From NCBI RefSeq assembly GCF_014524545.1, contig NZ_CP053557.1:2443501-2507500 (forward strand): a stretch of 64,000 nucleotides of DNA, given 5' to 3'. Positions 53,944 through 63,360 of this stretch are shown piece after piece (position 1 is the stretch's first letter; each line of letters begins with the position of its first letter). A program made the translations under genes and the position numbers. The stretch comes from Exiguobacterium sp. Helios. GTDB taxonomy: Bacteria > Bacillota > Bacilli > Exiguobacteriales > Exiguobacteriaceae. A model generated the notes under the pieces. That model had not been told where the DNA came from. It ran no database searches and saw only the letters and a program-made list of their open reading frames with translations.

Positions 53944-54083
53944 GGTTCGTGCCTCCAATTTCTTTTGCTAGTGTCTAGTTGGTAGTTCGACGTCGGGGCA
54001 GTTGTTCCTGCTACTCCAAATGGTTTATTTCCGTTACAATGATAAATGAAACCTACATACATCATTTTGAGGAGGAACTTTTC

Positions 54084-55196
54084 ATGCGTGACCCGCGCCT
54101 AACACAACTCGCAACGAATCTTATCAATTATTCAGTAGCACTTGCTCCTGGTGAAAAAGTCTTGATCGAGAATTTCGGAATCGAACGTGAACTTGTCGAA
54201 GCACTCGTTGATGCCGCTTATGAAGCCGGTGGTCTTCCATTCGTCCTCTTAAAGGATAACCGTGTGTTACGGAAATTGTACCGCAATGCGTCGGAAGAAC
54301 AACTTCAGTTAATGGCAGACATCGAACAAAAACAAATGCAGGCGATGGATGCTTATATCGGTCTGCGTGCCGGAGACAATATCAATGAACTTTCCGATGT
54401 CCCGTCTGACAAAATGAAGCTGTACGGTAAAACGCTCGGTAAAATGCATACCGAAGATCGTGTCAAAGGCACGAAATGGGTCGTGTTACGCTTCCCGACG
54501 ACTTCAATGGCACAACTGGCGAACCAGTCGACAGAAGCTTTCGAAGATTTTTACTTCGATGTCTGTACGCTTAACTACGCGAAGATGGGTGAAGCCATGA
54601 CGCCCCTCGTCGATTTGATGAATAAAACTGATCGCGTTCGTCTCGTCGGTCCCGGAACAGACCTGACTTTCTCAATCAAGGACATTCCAGCCATCAAGTG
54701 TGCCGGCAATGCCAATATTCCGGACGGAGAAGTCTTTACGGCGCCTGTCAAAGATTCGATCAACGGAACGATTTCATACAATACGCCTTCCCCTTACCAG
54801 GGCTTTACCTTCGAGAACGTCAAACTGACATTTAAAGACGGTAAAATCGTAGAAGCAACAGCAAACGATACGGAACGGATCAATCAAGTATTTGATACAG
54901 ATGCCGGAGCACGTTTTGTCGGCGAATTCGCAATCGGTGTTAATCCGTTCATCCAACATCCGATGAAGGATATCTTGTTTGATGAAAAGATTGATGGTAG
55001 TTTCCACTTTACACCCGGTCAAGCATATGCCGAGGCGTACAACGGAAATGACTCATCCATCCATTGGGATCTCGTGAACATCCAACGTCCTGATTACGGT
55101 GGCGGAGAAATTTGGTTTGATGATGTCTTAATTCGTAAAGACGGTCGATTCGTCTTACCTGAACTCGATGTCTTGAATCCTGAAAACTTAAAGTAA
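54084..55196 (+). CDS. M29 family aminopeptidase (AmpS/PepS-like)
   Basis: 370 residues from the ATG at 54084 (GAGGAGG, 8 nt spacing); upstream in-frame codons are not preceded by a ribosome binding site. The N-terminal Rossmann-like part is followed by the M29 metal-binding region: FTAPVKDSINGTISYN, a catalytic-site Glu, and HWDLVNIQ with His/Asp ligands near the C-terminus. It is a zinc/cobalt-dependent aminopeptidase with broad specificity. Monocistronic; divergent from ytxG. Confidence 0.93.
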   Translation: MRDPRLTQLATNLINYSVALAPGEKVLIENFGIERELVEALVDAAYEAGGLPFVLLKDNRVLRKLYRNASEEQLQLMADIEQKQMQAMDAYIGLRAGDNINELSDVPSDKMKLYGKTLGKMHTEDRVKGTKWVVLRFPTTSMAQLANQSTEAFEDFYFDVCTLNYAKMGEAMTPLVDLMNKTDRVRLVGPGTDLTFSIKDIPAIKCAGNANIPDGEVFTAPVKDSINGTISYNTPSPYQGFTFENVKLTFKDGKIVEATANDTERINQVFDTDAGARFVGEFAIGVNPFIQHPMKDILFDEKIDGSFHFTPGQAYAEAYNGNDSSIHWDLVNIQRPDYGGGEIWFDDVLIRKDGRFVLPELDVLNPENLK

Positions 55197-55198
55197 GG

Positions 55199-55247
55199 AA
55201 AAACGGACGGCTCATTCCATAGAGGATGCAGCCATCCGTTTTTTTTG
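55199..55247. terminator. Bidirectional terminator between the aminopeptidase and dps genes
   Basis: AAACGGACGGCT/AGCCATCCGTTT stem with a long loop and T-runs on the plus strand. Confidence 0.8.
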
Positions 55248-55249
55248 AC

Positions 55250-55690
55250 TTATTTTTTTAATGTTGCACGCAACATCCAAATTTGTTTTTCAATTTCTTT
55301 TGCTTGTGCCAATAAATCGTCTTCAACCGTCACATCCTGCGATTCAAGATGGACGATTGCATCCAGCATTTCCTTACGAATCTGTTGGAAGTCACTGATG
55401 ACCGACTCGACCATCTCATCTGCTGATAAGCCTGGTTTAGCTTCTTCAAGCGTCGTTTGCTCCAAATATTCCTTCAGTGTTGCAGAAGGCATTCCGTTGT
55501 TCATCAACAGACGTTCTGCCACGACATCGTACTGTTCCGAAACCCATGTGTATAATTCTTCAAGCTTTACATGTAACGTCAAGAAATCAGGACCTTTAAT
55601 GTACCAGTGGTAGTTATGGAGTTTTACAAACAGGACACCATAGTTTGCCACCTGTTGATTTAAAGCCGTCTTAGCATGATTACTAATCAT
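55250..55690 (-). CDS. dps: Dps family ferroxidase/DNA-protection protein
   Basis: 146 residues, four-helix bundle. Intersubunit ferroxidase residues are visible as NYHWYIKGPDFLTLHVKLEELY..VAERLL (His, Asp/His, Glu). It oxidises Fe(II) with peroxide and stores iron in a 12-mer. GAGAGGAG precedes the ATG. A candidate sigma-B promoter lies about 50-75 bp upstream, consistent with a general-stress Dps. Confidence 0.95.
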   Translation of the reverse strand: MISNHAKTALNQQVANYGVLFVKLHNYHWYIKGPDFLTLHVKLEELYTWVSEQYDVVAERLLMNNGMPSATLKEYLEQTTLEEAKPGLSADEMVESVISDFQQIRKEMLDAIVHLESQDVTVEDDLLAQAKEIEKQIWMLRATLKK

Positions 55691-55736
55691 TATCGATTTC
55701 TCCTCTCATAAAACTATGTTTTGTTCTATTTCATCT

Positions 55737-55762
55737 TTATCCTTAAATAACAAAACTTAAAC
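55737..55762 (-). promoter_or_regulatory. Candidate sigma-B promoter of dps
   Basis: Minus-strand GTTTAA (55757-55762), 14-bp spacer, GGATAA (55737-55742). The sigma-B consensus is GTTTAA-N12-15-GGGTAT: -35 is perfect, -10 matches at 4 of 6. Confidence 0.45.
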
Positions 55763-55806
55763 ATGATTTCATGAGAGATTCTTCGAGCATGCAGTAAAAA
55801 AATTTC

Positions 55807-56322
55807 TTACTGAGACCGTTTCAATCCTTTGAGCATATAACCGCCTTTGAAATCCACCGAATCAAAAGCGACAAGAAACGCTTTCGGTTCATACTCCTCG
55901 ACCAGGTTACGCAATACTTTCATTCTTGTCCGGGCTGCCAGTACATCCAGTCGATAACGAATTCCATCACGACCCTGACCTTGATAATGTGTGACTCCGA
56001 ATCCGTTATCCCGGATAACTTGAATCAATTCTGCCGGAAACTCTTGTGTGTGAACTTGAATCATATTGTATCCAATCGCCAGCTTCCGTTCGACGAATCC
56101 TCCAATCAGAATACCAAGACCGAATCCAAGCGCATAGACAATCATTCCGACTGTCGTCAAGTCACGGAATACGATACCGAGCGCAAAGATATAAATCAAC
56201 GTTTCAACCGTTCCTAACACACCTGCAATGATTGTTCTTCCTTTGACGAGCATGATGGTACGTAATGTCAAAACAGGTACGTAAATCAGCTGTAACAGTA
56301 AGATGAGTAAGATTTGTCCCAT
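55807..56322 (-). CDS. UPF0316 family membrane protein with DUF2179 domain
   Basis: About 171 residues. Three hydrophobic segments (about 5-22, 32-52, 59-79) precede a soluble DUF2179 domain (about 85-165) resembling that of YitT/YebE proteins (GFGVTHYQGQGRDGIRYRLDV). UPF0316 (compare B. subtilis YebE) has no known function. The ATG at 56322 (MGQILLILLL) follows AAAGGAAAG. Confidence 0.88.
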   Translation of the reverse strand: MGQILLILLLQLIYVPVLTLRTIMLVKGRTIIAGVLGTVETLIYIFALGIVFRDLTTVGMIVYALGFGLGILIGGFVERKLAIGYNMIQVHTQEFPAELIQVIRDNGFGVTHYQGQGRDGIRYRLDVLAARTRMKVLRNLVEEYEPKAFLVAFDSVDFKGGYMLKGLKRSQ

Positions 56323-56442
56323 GACGTCTTTCCTTTCTAAATAACATACCCCCACTATTCCAAAAATTAATTCAAGATGCAATCAAAAATTTACAACAAC
56401 CTACCTCAAAATCACTTCAGTTTTTTTTGTTTCATGAAACCG

Positions 56443-56477
56443 ACAAAAAAGACACTGACAAATGAATGTCAGTGCCC
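56443..56477 (-). terminator. Intrinsic terminator after murC
   Basis: Minus-strand GGCACTGACA/TGTCAGTGTC stem with TTCATT loop followed by TTTTTTG. Confidence 0.85.
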
Positions 56478-56493
56478 GTTCTTACTCAGGATG

Positions 56494-57789
56494 TTATTTC
56501 GTGTTTTCGTACTGGTGTTGATACGTTTGAATGTCTCCTGCTCCCATAAAGAGCAATACGGCATTTTCGTGTTTACTTAAGAGTGATACATTGTCCCGTG
56601 TCAAAATATCCGAGCCCGGCACTTTTTCTTGTAAGTCTTCTACCCGGACCTGGCCTTCCTGCTCACGTGCCGATCCAAAGATTTCACACAGATATGTGGC
56701 ATCTGCCTCGCGTAACGATGTCGCAAAATCATCCATGAATGACTTCAAGCGAGTATACGTATGCGGTTGAAAAATCGCTACGACTTCACGATCCGGATAT
56801 TTCTTGCGTGCAGACTCAATCGTCGCACTGATTTCTTTCGGATGGTGTGCATAATCGTCAACAAGAATCTGCGAACCGAAGTTAGATTCACTAAAACGGC
56901 GTTTCACTCCGCCGAATGTAGACAGACGCGCCGCTACCTCTTCTTTGTTCAATCCTTCATACTGGCAGATTGCGATGACAGACAGTGCATTCAAGACATG
57001 GTGGCGACCAAATCCAGGAATCAGGAATGTCCCGTAGAAGTCATCCCGGAGATATACGTCAAACGATGTTCCATCTGGAGTCGACGTTGCATTTTCTGCA
57101 CGGAAATCATTATTTTCGCCAAAACCGTAATACAGAATCGGAACATTCGCCTGAAGGTTTTGAAGATGTTCGTCATCTCCACAAGCTACGATTGCTTGTT
57201 TGACCTGCATCGCCATCTCCTGGAATGCAGATACGACGTCATCAATGCCTGTAAAGTAATCGGAATGATCAAAGTCAATATTCGTCATGATGGCATAGTC
57301 CGGTTTGTAATACAGGAAGTGGCGTTTGTATTCACACGCTTCAAAAACAAATGCTTTCGCATCTTCTACACCGGCACCCGTTCCATCACCAATCAAAAAT
57401 GCCGTTGGTGTAATTCCACTCAAGACATGTGACAGTAACCCGGTCGTCGATGTTTTACCATGCGAACCGGTAATGGCGACAGACCGGTACTCATCTGCTA
57501 AATAGCCTAAGAAATCATAATAATGATAAATCGTTAAATCCAGTTCCTTTGCCCGAGCAATTTCTGGATGATCATCTCCAAAAGCATTTCCTTGGATGAT
57601 GACTTGATTTTCTTTAATGTTGTCCGCACTGAACGGGAAAAACGGAATTCCTTTTGCCCGCAAGGCATCTTCTGTAAAAATATGCTTGTCAATATCAGAA
57701 CCTTGTACTTGATGATTCATTTCATGCAGTACTTGGGCGAGTGCACTCATCCCTGTCCCTTTAATCCCTACAAAATGATAATTTGTCAT
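56494..57789 (-). CDS. murC: UDP-N-acetylmuramate-L-alanine ligase
   Basis: 431 residues from the ATG at 57789 (GGAGGG, 7 nt spacing). Rossmann N-domain [12 protein letters not shown], central ATP-binding [16 protein letters not shown], Mg/substrate region DHSDYFTG and the C-domain YAHHPKEI. It adds L-alanine to UDP-MurNAc. A TATAAT box lies in the 80-bp gap behind the acidic gene, so it has its own promoter. Beside ytpR/ytpQ as in Bacillus. Confidence 0.96.
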
Positions 57790-57870
57790 ATATGAGCCCT
57801 CCAATTCACGTTCCGGTCCGTACCATCGGGCTTGGGTACAAAACCTGTACCATTATAGCAAACCGACTTA

Positions 57871-58770
57871 TTATTTACCATTTAAATTATTTTGTTCCCG
57901 ACGTGCACGATACATGGCCATCAAGTCTTTCGTCGTCATCACGACGTTTACCGGTGGTCCGACCGGTTTTTTAATTTGAACCGACTGGTCTGTAGGTACC
58001 TTTTCTGCCCCACTATTTTCTACTTTGATTTCAGCGACTAAATCGTTTTCAGCAGAGGGCAGTTCTTCTACTTGTGTGACCGGTTCCTCCGTTTTGTGAT
58101 CAACGTGTAAAGTACCTGTTGATAACTGGACAGGTTCCGCATCTTCTCCGTGAACAGCGTGCTCTTTCAAAGTCATTTCAGACTTTTCTTCCACAGGAGT
58201 CTCTTCGGTTAATTCTTCCATCGTCTCTTCTTTACTCATTTCTTCTGTAGCAGGATTTTCTAACGCTTGAACGGTATCGTTTACTTCAACAATATCGTCT
58301 GCTGCAGGAAGAGAACTTTCCGTCGTCACTTCTGCTTCGACTTGTTCTTCCGAAACATCTGACGGAGAATTTTCTTCGATTGTCGGTTCTGGAACGAGGA
58401 TGTCTGCATCTGTCGTCGGTACTAAGCCAGCATCCGCTTCGGTTAGATCCGTCTGTTCCATCGTCTCGATCCGCGACTCTTCGTTCAATTCTGATGTCTC
58501 ATGTTCAAGCGACTCTTCTGATTTTTCCTCTTCCTGTACACTTGAAACATCGACTTCAGATTCGTCAGAATGGATTTCCTCTTGGATCGACCGTTGCTTT
58601 CTAGGTCGTTGGAATCCGTAAATAGGCGATGGAACATCCGTCAACACGAAACGATCTTCACGCTCTTCTTTTTTAGGCCGTTCAACGGGTTTTGTTTCTT
58701 TTTCGCCTGCTAATTCACGTCGAATTCGTGCTGCCTGTTCCTTTAACGACTGTTCATAACGATTGCTCAT
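57871..58770 (-). CDS. Acidic, disordered protein at the SftA position; possible SftA N-terminal remnant
   Basis: 299 residues, very rich in Glu, Asp, Thr and Ser, low complexity over about 60-270, no membrane segment or catalytic motif. Two ordered islands remain: residues about 40-56 with FVLTDVPSPIYGFQRPR and the C-terminus PVNVVMTTKDLMAMYRARRE. In B. subtilis the gene between ytpR and murC is sftA, a FtsK-type DNA translocase with an acidic N-terminal linker and a similar SPIYGF-type motif (from memory). The motor domain is missing here. Function unknown. Confidence 0.6.
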   Translation of the reverse strand: MSNRYEQSLKEQAARIRRELAGEKETKPVERPKKEEREDRFVLTDVPSPIYGFQRPRKQRSIQEEIHSDESEVDVSSVQEEEKSEESLEHETSELNEESRIETMEQTDLTEADAGLVPTTDADILVPEPTIEENSPSDVSEEQVEAEVTTESSLPAADDIVEVNDTVQALENPATEEMSKEETMEELTEETPVEEKSEMTLKEHAVHGEDAEPVQLSTGTLHVDHKTEEPVTQVEELPSAENDLVAEIKVENSGAEKVPTDQSVQIKKPVGPPVNVVMTTKDLMAMYRARREQNNLNGK

Positions 58771-58787
58771 TCCCTCACCCCTCCATC

Positions 58788-58820
58788 TTGTTAAAAAATC
58801 GGCCGAATTATCGACCGATT
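58788..58820 (-). terminator. Terminator-like hairpin overlapping the ytpR stop
   Basis: Minus-strand AATCGG/CCGATT stem including the TAA stop, followed by TTTTTAAC. Confidence 0.6.
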
Positions 58821-59416
58821 AAAAATGCTTCTCCCGTTTTCGCCGTATCCTCAAGGACAAGAATTCCTTTTTCCTGCGGTGCATCCGGCAATGCGAGTTC
58901 CCGTGCAGAACAAAGCATTCCGCTCGAAGCCACTCCACGTAACGCGGACGGACGAATGATCAATCCGGACGGCATGACTGCGCCAGGTTTAGCGACCACT
59001 ACTTTTTGTCCGGCAGCAACATTTGGTGCTCCACAGACGATTTGCAATGTCTGACCATCCACCTCTACTTGACAGACCGACAACTTGTCCGCATCTGGAT
59101 GTTTTTCAGCAGATGCTACGAATCCGACTACGAATTTAGGTGAATAATCAATTTCACGTGCTTCGAAATCGACTCCGTTTTCTCCTAGTACGCGTTGAAC
59201 CGTTTCAACAAGTTCCGGTGTCAATTCGACCGGTCCTACAGCGTTCAATTCAAACTGCTTTGATGCTTCGAAGATGTTATAGCCAATGACGTCTTCGCCA
59301 TGGAAAATCGTTGCTACATCGCCTTTTCTTTCGGCAGTGATTTCAGCGCGTGGTGCATCTGCCAAGATGACCATCAGGACGTCCCCGACACCTTCTTTAT
59401 TATAAAAAACATTCAT
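58808..59416 (-). CDS. ytpR: tRNA-binding domain protein YtpR
   Basis: 202 residues from the ATG at 59416 (MNVFYNKEGVGDVLMV). An N-terminal DUF4479 half (about 1-85) precedes an EMAP/tRNA-binding OB fold (about 90-200: VGFVASAEKHPDADKLSVCQVEVDG, VCGAPNVAAGQKVVVAKPGAVMPSG, ALRGVASSGMLCSARELAL), homologous to the N-domain of PheT. It resembles a freestanding tRNA-binding protein; its target is unknown. Upstream of the acidic gene and murC as in Bacillus. Confidence 0.92.
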   Translation of the reverse strand: MNVFYNKEGVGDVLMVILADAPRAEITAERKGDVATIFHGEDVIGYNIFEASKQFELNAVGPVELTPELVETVQRVLGENGVDFEAREIDYSPKFVVGFVASAEKHPDADKLSVCQVEVDGQTLQIVCGAPNVAAGQKVVVAKPGAVMPSGLIIRPSALRGVASSGMLCSARELALPDAPQEKGILVLEDTAKTGEAFLIGR

Positions 59417-59469
59417 GCAATCCATGACTCCCTTCAAACTTTCTCACAATGCCTATTGTAGCAGATTAT

Positions 59470-60267
59470 TCAACTTTTCGGATGCTTGTTTTTTGCAAGA
59501 ACGAAGACAGGTTCCAGTTTACCTTCTTCATACATGAACGGAAGCGCCGTTACCGGAACCCGTCCGTTCGTGAAGAAATCGAACATCAATTGTTGTAAAA
59601 CATCGTATCCTGCATCATTTCGGATATCGGCAAAAATCAGCACATCCTGATGCGGAATCCCGACAGCAAACTCACCTGTCATTTTTTCAGCGTAATCGCT
59701 CAATAATTGTTTATTTAAGACACGACTTGCTTCATATCCATCACCCGTACTGAGGAAGTAAAAGATGTTCCCGGCTACTTCGTCCATTTTAAAGGGGGCT
59801 TCCAGTGTTTTTAAATTAAAGCGGGCTGCTTCTGACAAATGTTCGGTCGTCCACCCTGCCTGATGTAACAATTCTTCGTCAATCAACCGGTACGTGGCAC
59901 CTAAATCAAGCGCGTACATGATTTTCGTTTCACCGGTATGGGGGGTGCTGATGATTTTCTTACCATCTTTCGTTTCATCCGCAAAAGATTTTGCCCGAAT
60001 GACCGGAAAGACTTGTTGCTCATGACCAATTAAAGAAACCGGTTCCGTCTGTTCCAAAACGGCTTTGATGTATTCGATTGTCTCTTCGACTGCGATGACA
60101 CCGCGACGCTTCGCTTTCGCTACAAGTGGATTTAATCCCAGATCGACTCCTGTACGATCTTTTTTTCGTTCGATGCGAAGCACCGATTTTTCACGATCGA
60201 AATACGTTGTATAGTGGGTTGTATCAAATGCCTCAGTAACAAGGCGACGAATTTGTTGTAGTTCCAT
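59470..60267 (-). CDS. ytpQ: DUF1444 family protein YtpQ
   Basis: 265 residues, soluble, matching the UPF0354/DUF1444 family in length and in the segments VFPVIRAKSFADE and ALDLGATYRLIDEELL. Function unknown. It forms a conserved ytpR-ytpQ-ytpP cluster. The ATG at 60267 is preceded by AAAGGATG. Confidence 0.9.
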   Translation of the reverse strand: MELQQIRRLVTEAFDTTHYTTYFDREKSVLRIERKKDRTGVDLGLNPLVAKAKRRGVIAVEETIEYIKAVLEQTEPVSLIGHEQQVFPVIRAKSFADETKDGKKIISTPHTGETKIMYALDLGATYRLIDEELLHQAGWTTEHLSEAARFNLKTLEAPFKMDEVAGNIFYFLSTGDGYEASRVLNKQLLSDYAEKMTGEFAVGIPHQDVLIFADIRNDAGYDVLQQLMFDFFTNGRVPVTALPFMYEEGKLEPVFVLAKNKHPKS

Positions 60268-60290
60268 GAATCCATTTCATCCTTTCCTAT

Positions 60291-60317
60291 TAAAAAAAGC
60301 GAGTCAGCACTCGCTTT
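60291..60317 (-). terminator. Intrinsic terminator after ytpP
   Basis: Minus-strand AAGCGAGT/ACTCGCTT stem with GCTG loop followed by TTTTTA; ytpQ would need readthrough. Confidence 0.85.
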
Positions 60318-60321
60318 TGTC

Positions 60322-60630
60322 TCAGACTGTTTCTAAAAAGGCTGTAACCTGTTCAGGTGTTTTTCGTTCTTTCCCGACATAACGGCCTGTCTCTTCATTT
60401 TCACGATACGCGACGAAACTCGGGATTCCGAAGATGTCCATTTCCTGGGCAATTTCAATGTGCTGATCGCGATCGACGTAATAAAAATTGAATTCATTAA
60501 ACGTCTGTTCCATCTCCGGCATGAACGGATCTAAAAACCGGCAATCCGGGCACCAATCCGCCGAGAAAAGGAAAATCGATTTTTCTTTTTTTGCTTGGTC
60601 AAATTGTTCTTTTGATTCTAATTTTTCCAT
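60322..60630 (-). CDS. ytpP: Thioredoxin-like protein YtpP
   Basis: 102 residues, thioredoxin fold. The redox motif is WCPDC (about 26-30) rather than WCGPC, with a cis-Pro in FGIPSFVAY. Family members are thiol-disulfide oxidoreductases of unknown partner. First gene of ytpPQR. Confidence 0.92.
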   Translation of the reverse strand: MEKLESKEQFDQAKKEKSIFLFSADWCPDCRFLDPFMPEMEQTFNEFNFYYVDRDQHIEIAQEMDIFGIPSFVAYRENEETGRYVGKERKTPEQVTAFLETV

Positions 60631-60754
60631 CTGTTACACTCCCTCAATACTTGCTTTTTCATTGGGTTCATCATAGCATATTCGAATGTTTCTGTGCGTT
60701 TTGGCGCTCTGTTTGCTATACTGCAACTAGAAAATGTCCTGAAAGGAAATTATT

Positions 60755-61045
60755 ATGACTGATCAACCTGTTAAACATCCTTTCGAACGATTTGTAGGTT
60801 TTGTCGGCATGACAAGTTGTCTCCGATATGGATATTCGTTCATCGATTCCGAGCGTAGCCTGCCTCAAATTCTTATTTTTCTTGTGGTCGGATTCGCCAT
60901 CATCATGTTACTCGAAGCCATCGGGAAACGGCTCGCCAGAAAATTACCAATCGTTCGGATGCGTTACTTGATTCCGCTCTATCTATTGTACTTGTATGTC
61001 TTTTTCACAAGTTTTTACTCCAGCTCGTTTGGTTTTTCCCTGTAA
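60755..61045 (+). CDS. Uncharacterised 96-residue membrane protein
   Basis: I do not recognise a family. Two to three hydrophobic segments (about 37-55, 70-86) separated by the basic stretch GKRLARKLPIVRMR. The ATG at 60755 follows GAAAGGA. Divergent from ytpP and terminated by a perfect 46-bp inverted repeat. Nothing in the context indicates its job. Confidence 0.7.
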   Translation: MTDQPVKHPFERFVGFVGMTSCLRYGYSFIDSERSLPQILIFLVVGFAIIMLLEAIGKRLARKLPIVRMRYLIPLYLLYLYVFFTSFYSSSFGFSL

Positions 61046-61057
61046 GTATACGTATGT

Positions 61058-61103
61058 AAAGAGAAACAGGCGGTGGATGCGCATCCACCGCCTGTTTCTC
61101 TTT
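61058..61103. terminator. Perfect 46-bp inverted repeat, bidirectional terminator
   Basis: A 23-bp arm and its exact complement meet without a loop (centre GATGC-GCATC at 61076-61085), with A-run and T-run at the outer ends (AAAGAG...CTCTTT). It separates the convergent 96-residue and EIIC genes. Confidence 0.85.
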
Positions 61104-61144
61104 CTTTGCCTCTTTCAAAAAGCCAATGAACAAGCATATTCTCA

Positions 61145-62158
61145 TTAGTACTCGATTTTCAAATCTCCGTCTTTAATCCGTCCCATGCGATGAAGGGCCC
61201 GATAAATCAAATAACTCAGCAGCGCTGGTGCCAGGAAACATAAAACAAAGACAGCTAAATAATACTCCGCTTCAAATCCCATCGTTTTTAACATCATCAG
61301 CGGACCGACAAGTCCGCTTGTCCCCATACCCGATCCTTCAGGATTACTTTCGAGTGTCAACAAGACGGTCGCGAACGGTGCGAGCAGTGCTCCTGCCAGT
61401 GTCGGCGGGACAATCGTCCATGGATTTCGAATGATATTACCCACTTGTAACATCGACGTGCCGATTCCTTGGGCAATTAATCCGCCAATCCCGTTATCCC
61501 TGTAACTGATGACACCAAATCCGATCATCTGTGCCGCACAGCCAATCGTTGCAGCACCGGCCGCCAGTCCGTCAAGACCTAACATGATACCGAGGGCAGC
61601 ACTTGAAATCGGAGCTGTTAAGGCGAGACCCATGACGGTCGCGACAAAAATCCCCATGATCAAGGGTTCTCTTTCTGTTCCCCACCGGATGACTTCTCCT
61701 AAATCGATCATCAATGTTCCAATCCAAGCTCCGACGTACTTACCACTTACAAAACCGACGAGCAACGTGATCAATGGCGTCAAGATGATATCAAGACGCG
61801 TCGTCTTTGAAATCAATTTTCCGATTTCAGTAGCAATGACCGCTGCGACATAACTTCCGGCAGGGCCTCCTGCTTCATAACCAAATGCACCGACAGCAAC
61901 GGCAGAAAACAAAACGAGTGGTGGCGCTTCAAGTGCAAACGCGACAGCCACTCCGATTGCCGGACCCGTCAGCGCGATTGCCTGTTCTCCGACCGTAACG
62001 AGCATTCCCGCTTCAATACCTCTTGCAATCAATCCTTCACCTATCGTCTTTAAAATTAATCCCATAATCAAAGAACTGAATAACCCTAATGCCATATAGC
62101 TGAGCACTGTAATAAAATATACTTTCGGACTAAGTAAAATCCCTTTTCTTTTTAACAA
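61145..62158 (-). CDS. PTS EIIC-like membrane transporter (PTS_EIIC_2 family)
   Basis: 337 residues, eight to ten membrane segments, with GAFGYEAGGPAGSYVAAVIATEIGK and the GLDGLAAGAATIGCAAQMIGFG segment of the PF13303-type EIIC family. No EIIA/EIIB partner lies nearby, so PTS phosphotransfer is uncertain and the substrate unknown. The start is TTG at 62158 with AGGAAG 7 nt upstream. Confidence 0.82.
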   Translation of the reverse strand: MLKRKGILLSPKVYFITVLSYMALGLFSSLIMGLILKTIGEGLIARGIEAGMLVTVGEQAIALTGPAIGVAVAFALEAPPLVLFSAVAVGAFGYEAGGPAGSYVAAVIATEIGKLISKTTRLDIILTPLITLLVGFVSGKYVGAWIGTLMIDLGEVIRWGTEREPLIMGIFVATVMGLALTAPISSAALGIMLGLDGLAAGAATIGCAAQMIGFGVISYRDNGIGGLIAQGIGTSMLQVGNIIRNPWTIVPPTLAGALLAPFATVLLTLESNPEGSGMGTSGLVGPLMMLKTMGFEAEYYLAVFVLCFLAPALLSYLIYRALHRMGRIKDGDLKIEY

Positions 62159-62254
62159 GATGCCACTTCCTTCTGTTTGAAATCAGATTCATTATAACAA
62201 ACCCCCAAAAAAGGTCATACATTTGTTTTTCATGTGACAAGACAGTCGGGATGT

Positions 62255-62283
62255 AAAAAGAGGATGCACAAAGGCATCCTCCA
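62255..62283 (-). terminator. Intrinsic terminator after the M42 peptidase gene
   Basis: Minus-strand GAGGATGC/GCATCCTC stem followed by TTTTTAC. Confidence 0.85.
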
Positions 62284-62289
62284 TTATCT

Positions 62290-63360
62290 TCATTTGATTT
62301 GTAATGTTGCGAGCGTCGTCGCATCGAGTTGCGTGACAAGTTTCTTGAGCAATTCTTTTGCCGCATCGTAGTCATCCGTGTGCATGATCGAGGCATGCGT
62401 ATGAATATAACGTGCCGGAAGACCGACGACCGTCGTCGGAATACCGTTGTTTGAACGATGAATGACTCCCCCGTCCGTTCCGCCTGCACCAACATAGTAT
62501 TGATACGGAATCTTGTTCGATTCTGCCGTATCGAGAACATAATCTGTCATTTCTTTCGATAAAATCATGACGCTGTCCTTAATCCGTAACAACGGTCCTT
62601 GACCGAGCTGACCAAATTCTGTTTTATCACCTGAAGCATCGTTGGCCGGTGAGGCGTCGACGACAAAGGCAACATCCGGATCGATCAGATTCGTTGCTGT
62701 TTGTGCGCCGCGTAAGCCGACCTCTTCTTGAACCGTCGCTCCTGAGAATAAGATGTTTGGATGATCCGACGCTGTCGTCTCTTCCAACAACTCGATCGCC
62801 ATACCGACGCCGTACCGGTTATCCCATGCTTTCGCCATGATTTTTTTAGGATTGGCCATCGGTGTGAACGGGAAGAACGGAACAGCCGGAATACCCGGAC
62901 GGATGCCGAAAGATTCCGCTTCTTCTTTTGAGTCTGCCCCGACATCGATGAACATATCTTTGATTGCCATCGGCTTATTCCGGACTTCATCCGTCAATAA
63001 ATGTGGTGGTATCGAGGCAATGACACCGGGAATGATGCCGTTATCCCCACAAATCGAGAACCGTTGTGCGAGCAGTACCTGACTCCACCAACCGCCGAGC
63101 GGTTGAATCCGGAGCATGCCGTTTTTCGTAATCTGCGTTACCATGAAGGCCACTTCGTCCATATGACCGGCAACCATAACCTTCGGACCATTTTCCTGTC
63201 CCGTCCGTTTGCCAAAAATCGAACCGAGACCGTCCATGACGATTTCATCCGTCACCGGTGTAATGCGTTCTTTGACAAAGCGTCTGACATCGTGTTCAAA
63301 TCCAGGTGCACCATTTAATTCTGTCAACGTTCGAAACAAGTCTCTTGTTTTTTCATTCAT
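62290..63360 (-). CDS. ytoP: M42 family glutamyl/leucyl aminopeptidase (YtoP-like)
   Basis: 356 residues from the ATG at 63360 ([18 protein letters not shown] upstream). Binuclear metal ligands are visible: His in [10 protein letters not shown], Asp in DNRYGVGM, Glu pair in [10 protein letters not shown], Asp in VVDASPAND and His in [10 protein letters not shown]. Tetrahedral aminopeptidase type, acting on N-terminal residues of peptides. Neighbour of ytpP as in Bacillus. Confidence 0.95.

Follow-up and report, generated by a model that had tools for sequence, protein, structure and literature searches.

The sftA locus of Exiguobacterium sp. Helios encodes a motor-free ortholog of the N-region of SftA (YtpS), not the SftA translocase. 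The window analyzed was a stretch of 64,000 nt, and all of its features described here lie on the minus strand. In it, an ORF of 299 aa (57871-58770), with a GGAGGGG ribosome-binding site before its ATG start, is flanked upstream by ytpR (58808-59437; tRNA_bind and DUF4479 domains) and downstream by murC (56494-57789; three Mur ligase domains, likely ATG at 57789). These two neighbors mark the position held by sftA in many Bacilli, and relatives have kept sftA between them. Taken alone, the origin of the gene as an sftA ortholog that lost its motor is very probable.

The gene and its surroundings

The product of the ORF is strongly acidic (pI 4.3, net charge -45), with 25% D+E and 10% K+R. AlphaFold2, given 14 homologs, predicted only two helices, at residues 2-20 and 280-297, in an otherwise disordered chain with a mean pLDDT of 51. 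Neither Pfam nor NCBIfam assigned the protein to a family, and the PF01580 motor domain was absent from the ORF. As the FtsK motor was searched for and found missing, the protein does not belong to the SftA translocases. The original prediction, which placed an acidic, disordered protein without an FtsK motor between ytpR and murC, was confirmed. It had also described the space before murC as free of motor debris. Indeed, no motor remains were found in this gap of about 81 bp (57790-57870); it contains an extended -10 motif, TTTGCTATAATG, that is unchanged between the two genera of Exiguobacteriaceae.

Directly after TTTGCTATAATG comes an inverted repeat that still pairs although its arms are not the same in the two genera: they read GGTACA/TGTACC here and GACAAA/TTTGTC in two sister-genus loci (L069 and L073). 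Together, the motif and the repeat resemble a promoter for murC whose transcript would carry a hairpin at its 5′ end. Just past murC, at 56450-56477, we observed a terminator-like hairpin of 11 pairs followed by a T run, which would end a ytpQ-ytpR-sftA(N)-murC transcript. Rfam found nothing in 54000-62500.

Conserved islands compared with SftA

The protein shares with the SftA of Bacillus and relatives not only the locus between ytpR and murC but also a series of features of the N-region: an F-x-P-T-x-V-P-S-P-[IV]-Y-G-F island (island 1), an acidic linker and, as a candidate, a later P-x-N-V-x-M island (island 2). In the SftA N-regions of other Bacilli, stretches such as RRFIPTDVPSPVYGFGKPK are followed further on by LPFNVLMLKSDK; the Exiguobacterium protein has DRFVLTDVPSPIYGFQRPR and GPPVNVVMTTKD. 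Island 1 covers residues 39-57 (58600-58656). A 25-aa HMM of this island, trained solely on Exiguobacteriaceae copies, was run against about 1000 ORFs, and SftA proteins were its only good matches outside the family. In a six-frame search of 200 whole genomes, it gave E values down to 6e-10 per genome outside the family; over both search directions, E values ranged from 6e-10 to 1e-5 per genome. The matches outside Exiguobacteriaceae with E < 0.01 were in frames of 700-1100 aa, with two kinds of exception. One was a contig-edge fragment in a single genome (G114), which carried island 1 and ran into the motor. The other was a stop-containing frame of 84 aa in two genomes, and this looks like a chance match. 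In the reverse direction, a model built only from SftA recovered this locus in all 38 Exiguobacteriaceae genomes. The SftA-only HMM scored 33.8 bits on island 1, compared with 7.8 for the best of 5000 shuffled copies. Judged by these sequence comparisons, island 1 is homologous to the conserved SftA motif, and the likeness goes far beyond chance.

Island 2, together with the C-terminal helix, makes up residues 272-299 (PPVNVVMTTKDLMAMYRARREQNNLNGK; 57874-57957; helix at 280-297). Its PxNVxM part resembles the PFNVxM of SftA, and it agrees with SftA in position and pattern. Its HMM score fell inside the range of the shuffles, because the island is too short to reach significance. The pattern P[FVIL]NV[VILM]M was present in 20 of 20 copies and in 17 of 200,000 shuffles; as it was picked after the sequences had been seen, it serves as supporting evidence only. 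Of the proposed similarity of both islands to SftA N-termini, the part concerning island 1 thus stood in both directions, and for island 2 the position and pattern agreed while the HMM did not reach significance.

The variable linker between the islands (57958-58599) is disordered, with 30% D+E and a pLDDT below 50 for most of its length. Comparatively, the inter-island linker of SftA has 16-28% D+E and is 104-341 aa long. The two are alike in length and charge, and island 2 and the linker agree with SftA in order and composition. Two Exiguobacteriaceae loci (L007, 5001-6056, and L004, 5001-5918) contain an internal duplication of roughly 40-90 residues around IETMEQTDSTEADAGLVPTTDSDLLVPEP within the acidic linker, so the linker seems free to change in length. 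In the sister genus, the linker carries an extra conserved block, LGxVSIxxxGFxSVFMxSTDL (L069, 4306-5013; L071, 3991-4884; L073, 3924-4907). The core of this block, G-x-VSI-x3-GF-x-SVFM, had no match in SftA and was not present in Exiguobacterium.

The remaining parts differ from SftA. SftA starts with an MSWFKK-type amphipathic helix, its presumed membrane anchor, and also contains a FRFPLIPD box; the Exiguobacterium protein has neither, and it also lacks the FtsK motor and the gamma domain. Its own features are a polar N-terminal helix and a C-terminal helix that follows soon after island 2. The former (MSNRYEQSLKEQAARIRREL; residues 1-20, 58711-58770; helix predicted at 2-20 with pLDDT 81-87) is conserved in both genera, and it showed no relation to SftA N-regions above the level of shuffles. 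Since the protein has neither the SftA-type amphipathic helix nor a FRFPLIPD box, the retained part is the linker with its islands and not the whole N-region of SftA.

Motors, distribution and selection

We surveyed the FtsK-family motors of the same genome, which consists of two contigs and is rated 100% complete. It had one PF01580 match and one FtsK_gamma (PF09397) match, both in a single SpoIIIE-type gene far from the locus; no PF09397 domain was found in the genome outside that gene. The gene encodes 721 aa with TM-like hydrophobic segments. Its product belongs to the FtsK family and is membrane-anchored, with a full motor and gamma domain and no SPIYGF island. By contrast, the acidic, disordered protein of 299 aa has none of the membrane-translocase features of SpoIIIE/FtsK (N-terminal transmembrane segments and motor). 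The linker of this SpoIIIE contains DVPIIGF, a candidate for another SPIYGF-like motif. This stretch looks closer to the P-[IV]-I-x-x-F of the SpoIIIE linkers of other Bacilli, and it was therefore left out of the island comparison.

None of the 38 Exiguobacteriaceae genomes had an SftA motor, and each had exactly one full-strength SpoIIIE-type motor; no other chromosome translocase remains in them. Besides this motor, the matches above the cut-off were frames of 1558-1742 aa and one marginal frame of 384 aa. The long frames have the size of the EssC proteins of type VII secretion. Such EssC-sized FtsK-type frames, here of 1558-1735 aa, occurred in a few Exiguobacterium genomes (L030, L031, L032 and L033) and were absent from most of the genus. 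One genome (G037) had a motor frame of 444 aa, perhaps a broken or partial copy.

These results bear on whether the gene was retained or replaced. According to the replacement explanation, an unrelated acidic protein took the place of sftA and acquired its SPIYGF by convergence; the N-terminal helix without an SftA relative and the weakness of island 2 would fit this. The protein nevertheless occupies the same locus, matches SftA reciprocally over 19 residues, and has the same island order and a similar acidic linker. The replacement explanation is close to refuted, and we leave it only a very slight chance. Since island 1 matched in both directions and no full sftA was found elsewhere in the 38 genomes, retention of an SftA region after motor loss holds, and of the two origins first proposed, unrelated replacement was rejected.

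Among 398 genomes of the class, 199 had island 1: 38 from Exiguobacteriaceae and 161 from about 25 other families. The island-bearing frames of Exiguobacteriaceae were 236-407 aa long; outside the family, all frames among the matches listed exceeded 700 aa, save for the one contig-edge case. Among the matches listed for the 398 Bacilli genomes, the standalone form was confined to Exiguobacteriaceae. It might be argued that this form, which is fixed in both genera of the family, is ancestral and was fused to the motor later in other Bacilli. With the fused form in about 25 families and the standalone form in a single one, fewer steps are needed for loss, and an ancestral standalone form is quite improbable. 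As the island-bearing frames elsewhere were motor-sized among the matches listed, the most likely course is a single loss of the motor, in the ancestor of Exiguobacteriaceae. This is the simplest account of the distribution counts.

We also considered whether the gene is a decaying, functionless remnant of sftA. The middle part of the Exiguobacteriaceae protein varies freely in sequence and length (231-401 aa), as a remnant would. Both ends are nearly invariant over two genera in which synonymous sites are near saturation, and the ORF was intact in all genomes examined, barring a masked stretch in one. In Exiguobacterium, the median dN/dS was about 0.02 over the first 56 codons, 0.38 over the middle and 0 over the final 29 codons; the sister genus gave 0.11, 0.18 and 0.05, respectively. 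With synonymous sites near saturation these ratios are rough, although the contrast between the ends and the middle remains large. They indicate strong purifying selection on both islands and hence a gene that is not in decay. Decay is thus close to refuted and has an even smaller chance than replacement.

Possible role in cell division

The SftA of B. subtilis and its relatives offers a clue to what the retained part might do. SftA binds the Z-ring with the support of SepF and FtsA, and its overexpression in an ezrA mutant blocks division (PMC11790237). SftA is portrayed in a review (PMC5357621) as brought in by the FtsZ ring and acting ahead of septum closure. The genome studied here encodes both SepF and FtsA. 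In the literature searched, there was no study of SftA in Exiguobacterium, and the sole paper naming both concerns Spo0M.

We propose that the gene is an sftA ortholog that, in the ancestor of Exiguobacteriaceae, lost the translocase motor, the gamma domain and the former N-terminal membrane helix, keeping the acidic linker with two short conserved islands. The SPIYGF island would then act as a short linear motif through which the protein attaches to the early divisome via SepF and/or FtsA, the reported recruiters of B. subtilis SftA at the Z-ring. The free protein may keep a divisome role that does not depend on the motor, for example tempering septation driven by SepF and FtsA, and DNA pumping would be left to SpoIIIE alone. 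Origin and function considered jointly, we regard a motor-less sftA ortholog acting as a divisome-docking protein as somewhat probable. Against this reading stand the absence of the presumed membrane helix of SftA, the polar nature of the new N-terminal helix and the score of the island 2 HMM inside the range of the shuffles.

The main rival holds that the protein is a trans-acting adaptor of SpoIIIE: island 1 would bind the divisome and island 2 with the C-terminal helix would bind SpoIIIE, a bridge by which SpoIIIE could assume the pre-septal role of SftA. SpoIIIE is the sole remaining motor in 38 of 38 genomes, and no part is better conserved than the C-terminal end, which is predicted to be helical and in SftA was turned toward the motor. 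However, we recognized no new conserved feature in Exiguobacterium SpoIIIE, and SftA and SpoIIIE of B. subtilis are described as not colocalizing (PMC5357621). We consider such an adaptor unlikely.

Returning to the divisome-docking protein, each species checked still makes the acidic stretch as a protein by itself, and this suggests an independent job for it. More generally, and more tentatively, the linker of SftA might be an autonomous divisome regulator, with SPIYGF docking SepF or FtsA and a division job independent of DNA pumping; we give this slightly less than an even chance. Such independence would have allowed evolution to drop the motor and keep the regulator. A linker-only lineage would be a natural separation of the two roles of SftA, and it bears on how SftA is recruited to the Z-ring and why it affects division. 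It also singles out a motif of about 19 residues that some 25 families of Bacilli conserve and that is open to direct mutation.
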